Source: Clavibacter michiganensis
GTDB lineage: Bacteria > Actinomycetota > Actinomycetes > Actinomycetales > Microbacteriaceae
Assembly (NCBI RefSeq): GCF_016907085.1
Contig: NZ_JAFBBJ010000001.1
Coordinates: 620,001 to 684,000 of the forward strand
Direction: 5' to 3'
Length of the DNA: 64,000 bases
Position 1 is the stretch's first letter, and each line of letters begins with the position of its first letter. A program made the position numbers and the translations under genes. Below the pieces are notes generated by a model. The model searched no databases and was not told the origin of the DNA. It saw only the letters and a program-made list of their open reading frames with translations. This document shows, piece after piece, positions 1 through 4,650 of the stretch.

Positions 1-839
<839 letters not shown>

Positions 840-870: not shown

Positions 871-1689
871 TCAGCAGGTCGTCGGTCGCGGGGAGCCCGC
901 GGCCACCCACTGGGAGTAGGTCATCTTCACGCCGTCGGGCGCCGCGTAGCCGGAGTACGTGATGTCGGGAGATCCGGCTGCCATGCAGTACCGGTCCCCG
1001 GGGAACGACTTCACGACCTGGGGCGTGGGATACGCGTACGAGGCCCACGAGTCGTAGGAGAGCAGCTCGCCCTGCACGTTCCTCGTGTCCTCGATCACGA
1101 TGGAGGGCAGCCACGGCAGCTTGCGCACGTAGGAGCTGGCGTAGAAGACGTTCCCCTCGCCGGGCTGCTCCGCGAGGGCCGGCGAGCCGAGGTGCCGGTA
1201 CTCGTCGAAGGTGAGCTTGTGGTCGGTGAACTCGGTGCGTCCGACCGAACGCGACAGCGAGGCGATGCTCGAGAAGACCTCGCTGGACGAGGCCCACTTG
1301 TACACGCCGGCCGTCGAGGACAGGCGCGTGGTGACGGGGCGCGGGGAACCGGCGCGCTGCCATTCGCCGTAGCTGATCGGCAGCGAGACGGGATAGTCGG
1401 GGAGGGCGATCTCGGCGTACACGACGGGCGACCACGTGGATCCGAAGAACGTGGCGGACTCCCGGGTGGGAGCCGGGAACCCATCGGCTCGCCACTCCGA
1501 GAACGTCGCGATCGTGGTGACGGTGTCCTCCGGGTTGCCGTCTCCGTCGACGAGGATCAGATCGTCGAGGAACGGCACGGAGTGGTACGAGCGTGTCCGG
1601 GCCTCGGCGGCGCTGGCGGGGGCGGCCGCGACGGCGCCGCCGACGAGGAGCGCGCCGACGAGGGCGAGCGCGGTGAGGGAACGGTTCAT
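871..1689 (-). CDS. Secreted five-repeat W-x3-G-x-P protein, copy 1
   Basis: Predicted secreted protein of 272 residues with no function I recognise. It has a Sec signal peptide (MNRS, hydrophobic core, APASA cleavage region near residue 27). The mature part is five degenerate repeats of about 43-50 residues, each closing on a W/Y-x3-G-x-P box: TFSEWRADGFPAP, SYGEWQRAGSPRP, TFDEYRHLGSPA, SYDSWASYAYPTP and TYSQWVAAGSPRP. Two cysteines, one in DRYC and one as the very last residue (PTTC), probably form a disulfide. The ATG at 1689 was chosen because a signal peptide and a GAGAGG ribosome site follow from it; the frame is open further upstream but reads as non-coding sequence. It is the last of three tandem paralogues. 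Confidence 0.85.
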   Translation of the reverse strand: MNRSLTALALVGALLVGGAVAAAPASAAEARTRSYHSVPFLDDLILVDGDGNPEDTVTTIATFSEWRADGFPAPTRESATFFGSTWSPVVYAEIALPDYPVSLPISYGEWQRAGSPRPVTTRLSSTAGVYKWASSSEVFSSIASLSRSVGRTEFTDHKLTFDEYRHLGSPALAEQPGEGNVFYASSYVRKLPWLPSIVIEDTRNVQGELLSYDSWASYAYPTPQVVKSFPGDRYCMAAGSPDITYSGYAAPDGVKMTYSQWVAAGSPRPTTC

Positions 1690-1897
1690 GGAGGCCTCTC
1701 GGGCGATGGGGATGAGGGTGGGGAGACGGGTGGAGACGGAAGACCGCGAGGCGGTCCTGTCCGAGCATGGCGTGCATCCGTCCGCCGCCGCGCGTGCTTC
1801 CGGACCACCACCTGGACGGCTGGCCGGACGGGCGTCCATCGCGTAGCCGTCAGGGTGACACCTGGCCGGTGGGTCGGTCCGAGCCCGCCGTGCACGA

Positions 1898-1929
1898 CGC
1901 GCCCCCTGCCTCGAGGGGCAGGGGGCGCG
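1898..1929 (-). terminator. Strong hairpin terminator after secreted copy 2
   Basis: A 13-bp perfect stem (CGCGCCCCCTGCC pairing with GGCAGGGGGCGCG) around a 6-nt loop lies 21 bp past the stop of the 1951-2721 gene. It should isolate that gene from copy 1, so copy 1 probably has its own promoter in 1690-1897. Confidence 0.75.
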
Positions 1930-1950
1930 TCGACCGGCAGGCGGAGTCCG

Positions 1951-2721
1951 TCAGCAGGTCGTCGGACGCGGGGAACCGGCGGCCACCCACTGACCGAAGG
2001 TGAGGGTCACGCCGTCCGGCGCCGCCAGACCCGAGTAGCGGACGTCCGCCGAGCCGGCGGCCTGGCAGTATCGGTCGCCGTCGAAGGAGGCGACGACCTG
2101 CGGCGTGGGCTGCGCGAGGTAGGTCCACGTCGCGAAGTCGATCCGCGCGACCTGGCCGGTGTAGAGCTCCCTTCCCACGATGCTGTCGCTCCACGACAGC
2201 TTGCGGTAGGGCTCCTCCTGGGGCCCGACGACGGCGGGGTACCCGAGGTGGCGATACTCGGGGAACGTCAGCTTGTGCTGGGCGGGCTCGTCCGCGAAGG
2301 CGACGCCGGCGGAGACGAAGAGCTCGTCGGAACCGCGGTACTTGTACACGGTGGAGTCCGCGGCGAGACGGTCGGTGCGCGGCGTCGGCGCACCCAGCTT
2401 CGTCCAGGACGCGTAGTCGAGGTACGCCGAGAACGTGACGCGGCCTGCGGTGGCGTCGGCGAAGATCGTCGAGTCCCACGTGTACTTCACGTAGTCCATG
2501 GAGGCGGGCCGCGGCTTCGGGAAACCGTCCTGCTTCCAGTCATCGAAGGTCGCGGGCACGACGGTCGGGCCGTCGGGGGAGTCCACGTCGACGAAGAGGT
2601 CGGCGCTGTACGGAACGGAGTAGTACTGCCCGGCGCCGATCGCGGCGTGGGCGGGCAGGGCGACGGCGGCGCTGCCGAAGACGACGGCGGCCGCGATGAG
2701 GGAGCGGATCGTGCGGTTCAT
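1951..2721 (-). CDS. Secreted five-repeat W-x3-G-x-P protein, copy 2
   Basis: A 256-residue paralogue of its two neighbours, function unknown. The signal peptide runs to about residue 26 (LPAHA). Repeat boxes end near residues 70, 114, 163, 206 and 253: TFDDWKQDGFPKP, DYASWTKLGAPTP, TFPEYRHLGYPA, DFATWTYLAQPTP and TFGQWVAAGSPRP. The repeats also share an aromatic Y-x-W-x-x-x-I segment near the start of each unit. Cysteines are only Cys219 (DRYC) and the terminal Cys256. Each repeat resembles the repeat in the same position of the other copies more than its own neighbours, so whole genes were duplicated after the repeats diverged. The ATG at 2721 is preceded by GAAAGG. Extracellular or cell-surface location is inferred. 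Confidence 0.87.
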   Translation of the reverse strand: MNRTIRSLIAAAVVFGSAAVALPAHAAIGAGQYYSVPYSADLFVDVDSPDGPTVVPATFDDWKQDGFPKPRPASMDYVKYTWDSTIFADATAGRVTFSAYLDYASWTKLGAPTPRTDRLAADSTVYKYRGSDELFVSAGVAFADEPAQHKLTFPEYRHLGYPAVVGPQEEPYRKLSWSDSIVGRELYTGQVARIDFATWTYLAQPTPQVVASFDGDRYCQAAGSADVRYSGLAAPDGVTLTFGQWVAAGSPRPTTC

Positions 2722-2812
2722 GATGCCTTTCGTGGCGGGTAGCTGATGGTCATGCGGCCGGATGGCGCGAGTGCCGGGGGAGACACCGGGGTGTCGGGGT
2801 GGCGGGGTGGCA

Positions 2813-3583
2813 TCAGCAGCGCGCGGGCTGCGGGGAACCGGCCGCGACCCACTGGCCGAAGTCGAGCTTCACGCCGTCCGGTGCCGCGATGCCGACGTAG
2901 CGGATGTCCGCGGAGCCCGCGGCCTGGCAGAACCTGTCGCCGTCGAACGACTTCACGATCCGCGGGGTGGGACGGGCGTAGTAGTCCCAGGTGGCGAAGT
3001 CGAGCGCCTCGTCCTCGCCCGTCCCCGTGTCGGGGCCGACGATCGAGGGGAGCCAGGACAGCTTGCTGAACGCGTAGTCCAGGACGTCGGGAGCGGGGTA
3101 GCCGAGGTGAGCGAATTCGGCGAAGGTCAGCTTGTGGTTGACCGGGAGGTCGTCGCCGTAGCTGCCCTGACCGACGAAGACCTCGGAGGAGTATCCGTAG
3201 CGGAAGGCCTGGCCGTCCACCGCGAGGCGGTCGCTGGTGGCCTTCGGCGATCCCGCAGCGCGCCACTGCCCGTACGTGAGGGCGAACGACGCGGCCGCGG
3301 CGTCGGTCTGCACGTCGGCGTAGATCGTCGGGGACCACGTGTAGGAGCGGTAGGCGACCCGGCTCGGCACCGGCTTCGGCAGCCCGTCCGAGGCCCACTC
3401 GTCGAAGGTGGCGATCTGGAGGTAGAAGACCCCCTCGCCCTCGCCGGTCGTGTAGAGGTCGCCGCTGAAGGGGACCGAGTAGTAGGTGCCGTCGCCGGGT
3501 GCCGCCTGCGCCGGCGTGGCGACGAGGGCGCTGCCGAGCACGAGGGCTCCGGCGATGGCGAGGGCGGGGATGGAGCGGTTCAC
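2813..3583 (-). CDS. Secreted five-repeat W-x3-G-x-P protein, copy 3
   Basis: A 256-residue paralogue and the first of the three in transcription order, starting at GTG 3583 behind GGAAGG. The signal peptide ends near ATPAQA. Five repeat boxes follow: TFDEWASDGLPKP, TYGQWRAAGSPKA, TFAEFAHLGYPAP, DFATWDYYARPTP and DFGQWVAAGSPQP. The cysteine pair is conserved (DRFC and the C-terminal PARC). The gap to copy 2 is 91 bp with only a weak 5-bp hairpin, so these two could be co-transcribed. No catalytic motif, LPXTG sorting signal or transmembrane tail is visible, so the product is probably released or non-covalently attached to the wall. Confidence 0.87.
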   Translation of the reverse strand: MNRSIPALAIAGALVLGSALVATPAQAAPGDGTYYSVPFSGDLYTTGEGEGVFYLQIATFDEWASDGLPKPVPSRVAYRSYTWSPTIYADVQTDAAAASFALTYGQWRAAGSPKATSDRLAVDGQAFRYGYSSEVFVGQGSYGDDLPVNHKLTFAEFAHLGYPAPDVLDYAFSKLSWLPSIVGPDTGTGEDEALDFATWDYYARPTPRIVKSFDGDRFCQAAGSADIRYVGIAAPDGVKLDFGQWVAAGSPQPARC

Positions 3584-3996: not shown

Positions 3997-4650
3997 ATGC
4001 GCCGCAGCACCTACACCGCGACCGCCGTCACGTACGGCTCCGTCGGCGGCACCCAGGCCGTCGACCTCATGACCTACCCGCCCGAGGGCTACCGTCCCGC
4101 GGAGGCGAGCGCCCGGCTCGGCAGCGGCGACGAGCGCTTCGAGCAGGCCGTCGCCCTCCTCATGACGTGGGGCGTGCAGCGCGGCAGCGGCATCGAGGTC
4201 ACCCGCATCGAGCAGGAGGTGCCGGACGACCCCGGCTACACCGGCCTCGAGTTCGACGAGGACGGGGTGCCCCAGGTGCCGGTCGACCGCCCGCGGGAGA
4301 CGCTGTACGGCGACGACGGCACCGCATGGATCACGTCGGGGACCTCGGCCGTGCTGCGCATGCCGTTCGGCCCGTTCCATCCCGAGGCGCCGGTCCGCGT
4401 CGTGTACACCGTGCAGGAGACCGACCGCGTCGGCTTCGCGTACGGCACGGTGCACGGGCACCCGCTGAGCGGCGAGGAGGCGTTCCTCGTCTCCCGGGAG
4501 CCCGACGGCAGCGTGTGGCTCACCCTCCGTGTCTTCTCGCGACCGGCGTCGTGGCCGATGCGGCTCGCGAGCCCGGTCCTGCGCATCGTGCAGGGCGTGT
4601 TCATGCGCCGGTACCTGCGGTCGCTGCACCCGGCGGTCGCGTCCGCCTGA
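3997..4650 (+). CDS. DUF1990 family protein
   Basis: A 217-residue protein of the DUF1990 family, function unknown. Family-like features are the YGSVGGT start, the MTWGVQRGSGIEV segment, a TYTVQE-like strand (VVYTVQETDRVGFAYGTVHGHPLSGEEAF) and a C-terminal RYLRSL. No signal peptide or membrane segment, so probably cytoplasmic. The ATG at 3997 was preferred over upstream in-frame codons because a -10 box lies 7 nt before it and the family alignment begins there. It is convergent with the HAD gene 21 bp downstream. Confidence 0.8.
   Translation: MRRSTYTATAVTYGSVGGTQAVDLMTYPPEGYRPAEASARLGSGDERFEQAVALLMTWGVQRGSGIEVTRIEQEVPDDPGYTGLEFDEDGVPQVPVDRPRETLYGDDGTAWITSGTSAVLRMPFGPFHPEAPVRVVYTVQETDRVGFAYGTVHGHPLSGEEAFLVSREPDGSVWLTLRVFSRPASWPMRLASPVLRIVQGVFMRRYLRSLHPAVASA

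Follow-up and report, generated by a model that had tools for sequence, protein, structure and literature searches.

Three putatively secreted five-unit proteins next to lepA

In a 64,000-nucleotide stretch of a Clavibacter michiganensis genome (contig NZ_JAFBBJ010000001.1 of assembly GCF_016907085.1, positions 620,001 to 684,000; hereafter the window), we analysed three adjacent genes, copies A, B and C, that lie between lepA and a DUF1990 gene (Table 1). All three are minus-strand open frames, share 46-53% pairwise identity and begin, by inspection, with a hydrophobic signal-like stretch and an A-x-A near residues 25-28, which bears out the tandem, triplicated secreted family proposed in the initial annotation. 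The Clavibacter family is real and not annotation noise. An alternative upstream ATG would lengthen copy A to 322 aa, but it is probably not the start because the MNRS at position 1689 aligns with the other copies.

Each protein contains exactly five matches to the strict motif [TSD][YF]-x2-[WYF]-x3-[GA]-x-P, as had been claimed, versus a mean count of 0.010-0.023 in 2000 shuffles per protein. In comparisons between copies, the unit of the same index was the best match in 29 of 30 cases, again as first described, the sole exception being unit 2 of copy A against copy B. The five unit profiles, cut from alignment A3 (a length filter kept 78, 80, 80, 81 and 44 of its 81 rows for units 1 to 5, respectively), match one another in 10/10 pairs with hhalign probabilities of 79-98%, compared with a mean of 1.2% in 100 column-shuffled controls (one at 52%, the others at 6.1% or less). 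As cut, the units span 39-54 residues, near to but slightly wider than the 43-50 residues given initially. The five-unit plan is older than the Clavibacter gene duplications, as had been suggested, because it is also present outside the genus.

The only cysteines are residues 235 and 272 in copy A and residues 219 and 256 in copies B and C, consistent with the two per copy, one of them terminal, that had been noted. In 183 collected copies of the module that extend into the last unit, a cysteine pair (one residue in the first part of the unit, the other at its end) is present in 78, both cysteines are absent from 102, and the remaining 3 contain a single one; many of these rows are related and thus not 183 independent events. 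The three single cysteines lie at another position (P0069), in the following Excalibur-like region (P0111) or alone after the unit (P0167). The pair occurs in proteins from Clavibacter, Arthrobacter, Cryobacterium and genome G535 (see below). This co-occurrence supports the pairing proposed earlier, and the two cysteines are likely to form a disulfide in the last unit.

The AlphaFold2 model of copy C (81 rows; pLDDT 90.4, pTM 0.80, low mainly in the signal stretch) predicts that each unit consists of short strands and one short helix bearing the W-x3-G-x-P end. A distant member, P0055 (76 rows; 96.5 and 0.77), is predicted to have the same plan, so that structure prediction gave five similar units and not one enzyme fold, in agreement with the original description. 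A Foldseek search against PDB found no convincing whole-model match (best E 0.011; TM 0.17 or less in the best 50 rows), and many of the weak matches are propellers by title. Five-bladed beta-propellers such as GH62 likewise have five blade-like units, but the GH62 rows, with TM values of 0.17 or less and an rmsd of about 17-22 A, gave no global superposition.

Using VIA-align, EccB chains of type VII secretion (repeats R1-R4, PF05108) were ranked top for both models, with low Z and for single units only, and we treat this predicted likeness as a lead only. Homology with EccB was not found by sequence: the units showed no sequence-profile similarity to an alignment of seven EccB proteins (hhalign 0.0-0.4%) and Pfam was likewise unmatched. 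The EccB1 repeats are described as weakly similar to the wall-binding PlyCB, with no binding data, in PMC4769845, which makes the PlyCB N-terminal domain, by way of EccB, another of the nearest known structures.

Two outcomes had been named beforehand that would overturn the initial annotation, a strong match to a characterised domain and a single enzyme fold, and neither was found. For copies A-C, Pfam gave nothing up to an E of 10 (EccB PF05108, LGFP PF08310, Excalibur and choline-binding families were all unmatched) and NCBIfam gave no match, which agrees with the earlier statement that no named family was recognised. A PDB sequence search with copy C returned one match only, a hydrogenase subunit at E 0.32, and profile A3 found none in PDB at E up to 10. 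There was no match under E 0.001 in a BFVD fold search, none in viral contigs and nothing from PADLOC for five proteins; each of the 15 plasmid records found with P0055 aligned solely to its residues 230-283, which form the Excalibur part. A description of the module was not found in the literature searched, including the available portions of PMC5217389, PMC7839047, PMC12455917, PMC4769845 and PMC5137146, and may still be published. CMM_1557, a putative secreted protein that PMC5217389 reports from supernatants of C. michiganensis, at a lower level in a mutant without (p)ppGpp, was considered as a member of the five-unit family and not used, as nothing found links this tag to the family.

Table 1. 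Features of the array and its neighbours, in window coordinates
Feature	Coordinates	Strand	Basis
Copy A, putatively secreted protein of five units, 272 aa, closest to lepA	871..1689	-	ATG open frame; motif count
Copy B, putatively secreted protein of five units, 256 aa	1951..2721	-	ATG open frame; motif count
Copy C, putatively secreted protein of five units, 256 aa	2813..3583	-	GTG start; motif count; AlphaFold2 model
Copy C signal-peptide-like stretch, residues 1-28	3500..3583	-	Inspection; low pLDDT in residues 1-26
Copy C unit 1, residues 32-74	3362..3490	-	AlphaFold2 model; unit profiles; index match
Copy C unit 2, residues 75-117	3233..3361	-	AlphaFold2 model; unit profiles; index match
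Copy C unit 3, residues 118-166	3086..3232	-	AlphaFold2 model; unit profiles; index match
Copy C unit 4, residues 167-209	2957..3085	-	AlphaFold2 model; unit profiles; index match
Copy C unit 5, residues 210-256, most conserved unit, holds Cys219 and Cys256	2816..2956	-	Model; profiles
Copy C Cys219 codon, first of the cysteine pair	2927..2929	-	Sequence; co-occurrence
Copy C Cys256 codon, last residue	2816..2818	-	Sequence; co-occurrence
Very stable GC hairpin directly after the copy B stop, no T run	1890..1950	-	Fold z -4.57
lepA end, left neighbour of the array	3..839	+	PF06421 and PF00679; same in 13/13 arrays
DUF1990 gene, right neighbour of the array	3997..4650	+	PF09348; same in 13/13 arrays

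None of 200 shuffles was as stable as the hairpin that follows copy B. It was missed by a terminator pattern search, has no standard-terminator T run and is possibly a transcript end.

Distribution and domain partners of the module

Besides the window genome, 12 of 17 further genomes of the same genus have the family, the remaining five having no match. In the same search, which covered 60 genomes, a single weak match was found outside the genus (G026, E 9.6e-4); it adjoins a kinase and, by eye, PASTA-like repeats, and was dropped as a chance match. In all 13 genomes with the family the array is located between lepA and the DUF1990 gene, with the copies pointing against lepA. It comprises one to five copies, in total 37 intact ones and one that is split into two frames; the split copy (genome G015, L054 6593-7278) lies in two overlapping pieces.

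We could read the lepA-DUF1990 slot in four of the five Clavibacter genomes without the family (G001, G006, G010 and G011; in G002 it lay on a short contig piece). It is empty in G011 (54 bases), and in G001, G006 and G010 it measures 2089, 1976 and 1450 bases and encodes one secreted protein each on the strand opposite lepA (open frames of 602, 574 and 375 aa, respectively). The proteins in these three slots (slot coordinates L062 4733-6821, L063 1355-2804 and L064 1083-3058) end in LPMTG or LPVTG followed by a membrane stretch and an Arg-rich tail. The one scanned, from G006, matches Big_13 (L064), and no relative of it was found in the window genome. The slot looks as if surface proteins replace each other there.

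The window genome (one 3.32 Mb contig) encodes only one match besides copies A-C, P0041 (repeated by P0042), a fourth paralogue of 293 aa in which four units are followed by a Gly/Pro linker and a tail resembling Excalibur but sub-threshold for PF05901 (E 0.34; 11.8 bits versus a cut-off of 22). Searches with P0041 and with the module taken from a protein of Arthrobacter yielded a list of 144 distinct proteins (one search giving its best 120 of 127). Sources among the matches listed include Arthrobacter, Pseudarthrobacter, Cryobacterium, Saccharothrix and Actinosynnema as well as Antribacter, Cellulosimicrobium, Serinibacter, Geodermatophilus and Aeromicrobium. An HMM of the module built from A5 detected it in 186 of the 187 proteins collected, the window's three included, all but P0125. 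By unit HMM, 172 of these 186 proteins have five units, 10 have four, 2 have three, and one each has two and eight.

Many of the listed proteins have no partner domain at all. The partners in the others, counted from precomputed Pfam columns with the four largest classes recounted (143 of the 144 have the module, P0125 being the exception), are a GmrSD_C-type HNH nuclease in at least 26, a polysaccharide deacetylase in at least 12, CAP in at least 8, a GDSL esterase in at least 3 (2 of which also have HNH), an M23 peptidase and a cutinase in at least 2 each and a subtilase in at least 1; Excalibur is present in at least 31, P0125 included. These are lower bounds, as a Pfam re-scan found GmrSD_C in two more proteins (P0138 and P0146); re-scans confirmed examples of every listed class. 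Whole genomes added VanY in three proteins (P0126, L078:17389-18744 and L082:1556-2827), SpoIID with two to three units (P0127), a Transglycosylas/Rpf-like domain (L078:1294-2292) and further CAP and deacetylase fusions. One more module protein (L080 22-2142) has an N-terminal M12-like metalloprotease domain.

The position of the module varies in the manner of a portable accessory domain: it precedes M23 and VanY and stands before or after the deacetylase. In the proteins scanned, Pfam reported no enzyme family across the module region. Using NCBIfam, the deacetylase part resembled the PdaB, PdaA, NodB and PgdA types below the cut-off and the tails gave sunset or Rv1352/Rv1906c domains; five of the ten proteins scanned were without a match, and no family was reported across the module.

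LGFP repeats serve wall attachment. Like the module, LGFP (PF08310) is a secreted actinobacterial repeat; it is attached to wall amidases, and in genome G053 the SpoIID-module gene lies beside that of an Amidase_2 protein with LGFP repeats (L039 15-1439 and 1489-3153). The motif is different, however, and PF08310 is unmatched in copies A-C at E up to 10 although the same library detects LGFP in L039. A similar modular plan is seen in the pneumococcal CbpL, which combines teichoic-acid-binding repeats with an Excalibur domain and a further domain (PMC5137146, accessible part). P0041 has units and an Excalibur-like tail and P0057 has units and an Rv1352/Rv1906c domain, but copies A-C have no choline-binding family match and also differ from Excalibur proteins (PF05901) in having no such domain.

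Genome G535 encodes an independent array of four free-standing copies in a row (247-258 aa, one of the four with the cysteine pair). A module-VanY gene lies about 195 bases from the nearest free-standing copy. At the opposite end, the array is separated from a module-transglycosylase gene by about 11.5 kb, in which two family 2 glycosyltransferases and one sugar-nucleotide epimerase are encoded. The region (L078 1294-18744) is possibly a surface-polysaccharide locus. In G376, a module-VanY gene adjoins a dTDP-rhamnose enzyme fusion.

Divergence and possible gene conversion among the copies

Units 1-4 of paralogues within genomes are 0.37-0.41 identical, compared with 0.66 for unit 5 (43 pairs); over all pairs between genomes the values are 0.40-0.44 and 0.60 (623 pairs). 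In the tree of copies, the lepA-nearest copies of six genomes (copy A and those of five other Clavibacter) group together, thus that duplication is older than those species.

In genome G007, units 1-4 of copy 4 group with their orthologues in G004 and G014 (support 1.0) and unit 5 groups with the neighbouring copy 5 (0.90), in unit trees that used 32 of the 37 copies. Compared at third codon positions in chosen pairs, this unit 5 has an identity of 0.91 with the paralogue and of 0.61-0.63 with the orthologues. Gene conversion appears to be the simplest reading. Recent conversion was not seen in the window's own copies (two pairs tested), where third-position identity is 0.65 in unit 5, while units 1-4 give 0.47-0.63 and the signal part 0.57-0.67.

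For units 1-4, dN/dS was 0.14-0.57 in 11 chosen orthologue pairs, indicating purifying selection with no sign of positive selection in these pairs. One ratio for unit 5 reached 1.04, resting on very few changes.

Function of the module

Fusion to several independent wall-acting enzymes, by which wall-binding modules can be recognised, was found for M23, VanY, SpoIID, Transglycosylas and polysaccharide deacetylase domains. Because these five kinds of peptidoglycan-directed domain join one module without a recognised enzyme fold, we consider it likely, with a probability of roughly 0.6, that the module is an unnamed, portable, secreted and non-catalytic domain that binds the cell envelope (peptidoglycan or an attached wall glycan), the Clavibacter genes encoding free-standing copies. 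Also in keeping with this reading are the varying domain order, the neighbourhoods in G535 and G376, the LPMTG or LPVTG proteins that occupy the lepA slot in three Clavibacter genomes and the LGFP amidase beside the SpoIID-module gene of G053. The module would tether its cargo to the wall. In Clavibacter, the free-standing proteins would be exported and dock on the wall via their repeated aromatic and Pro-Gly units, forming a coat or decoration on it, and a disulfide presumably closes the last unit. Unit 5 appears to be held more constant than units 1-4, and paralogues differ in the latter, so they may prefer different wall or glycan sites.

A more speculative extension, which we regard as possible but doubtful, is that the copies form a recombining set of wall lectins. 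The signal peptide and the disulfide-closed last unit, both kept alike among copies by gene conversion, would act as the constant anchor and units 1-4 as divergent faces for different wall or surface glycans. The lepA slot would be a surface-coat cassette site where, from one species to another, the set gives way to an LPXTG wall protein or the reverse.

Several points weigh against envelope binding. Not all partners are wall enzymes: a nuclease is the commonest, and the substrates of cutinase, GDSL esterase and subtilase are others again, thus the module could bind extracellular polysaccharide or surfaces in general. The nucleases and esterases give the chief reason for doubt. The partner counts have no random secreted-protein control, and the polysaccharide neighbourhoods are two anecdotes, also without a control. 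The module is patchy in whole genomes (found in 5 of 296 other genomes for the order sample and in 2 of 393 for the class sample), at a low sensitivity as only 7 and 5 candidates, respectively, were scored per genome; nine of the 15 matching genomes in the order sample matched the Excalibur part alone and were not counted. Wall-binding domains are often found in lysins, yet no phage record matched the module protein P0055.

Among the roles offered in the initial annotation, wall binding is the one favoured by the fusion partners, and a plant-specific or host-facing main role was not supported. In the latter, free-standing copies would be lectins or adhesins that bind plant cell-wall glycans or xylem surfaces and aid colonisation, with units 1-4 diversified for host ligands. 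The expansion to one to five copies in Clavibacter, the divergence of units 1-4 between paralogues and the deacetylase or cutinase of some module proteins, which could act on plant or fungal polymers, would fit. We think it unlikely, however, and down-weighted a plant-effector reading, since the module occurs in Arthrobacter, Cryobacterium, Saccharothrix, Serinibacter and further actinobacteria for which no plant link was shown, and five of the 17 other Clavibacter genomes have no match. The module and an independent free-standing tandem array also exist in genomes with no plant link shown, and the dN/dS values of units 1-4 give no sign of positive selection at that level.

The mixed secreted enzyme partners, together with the glycosyltransferase and sugar-nucleotide enzyme neighbourhoods in two genomes, would also suit a module that binds the cell's own exopolysaccharide or biofilm matrix instead of the wall proper. 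That M23, VanY, SpoIID and Rpf-like partners usually act on peptidoglycan makes this quite unlikely. It is very improbable that free-standing copies compete with or regulate the cell's own module-enzyme fusions by occupying the same wall sites and setting where those act: the G535 copies adjoin a module-VanY enzyme, but the one other match in the window genome is a protein with an Excalibur-like tail in which no enzyme domain was found anywhere along its length. An enzyme of unknown type, to which an invariant Asp, an invariant Glu and a nearly invariant His in the Clavibacter set might point, is hardly credible given that the repeated units are predicted to be alike and that the module, with no catalytic domain of its own recognised, is joined to many unrelated ones.

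Binding to the cell envelope thus remains the reading we prefer for this secreted actinobacterial module, which is found on many wall-cutting and other secreted enzymes and has no entry in the Pfam and NCBIfam versions searched. Once it has a name and its ligand is found, well over a hundred protein clusters, many of them now called hypothetical, would be annotated, actinobacteria would gain a new wall-targeting domain, and it would become clear what the lepA-linked secreted arrays of Clavibacter decorate.

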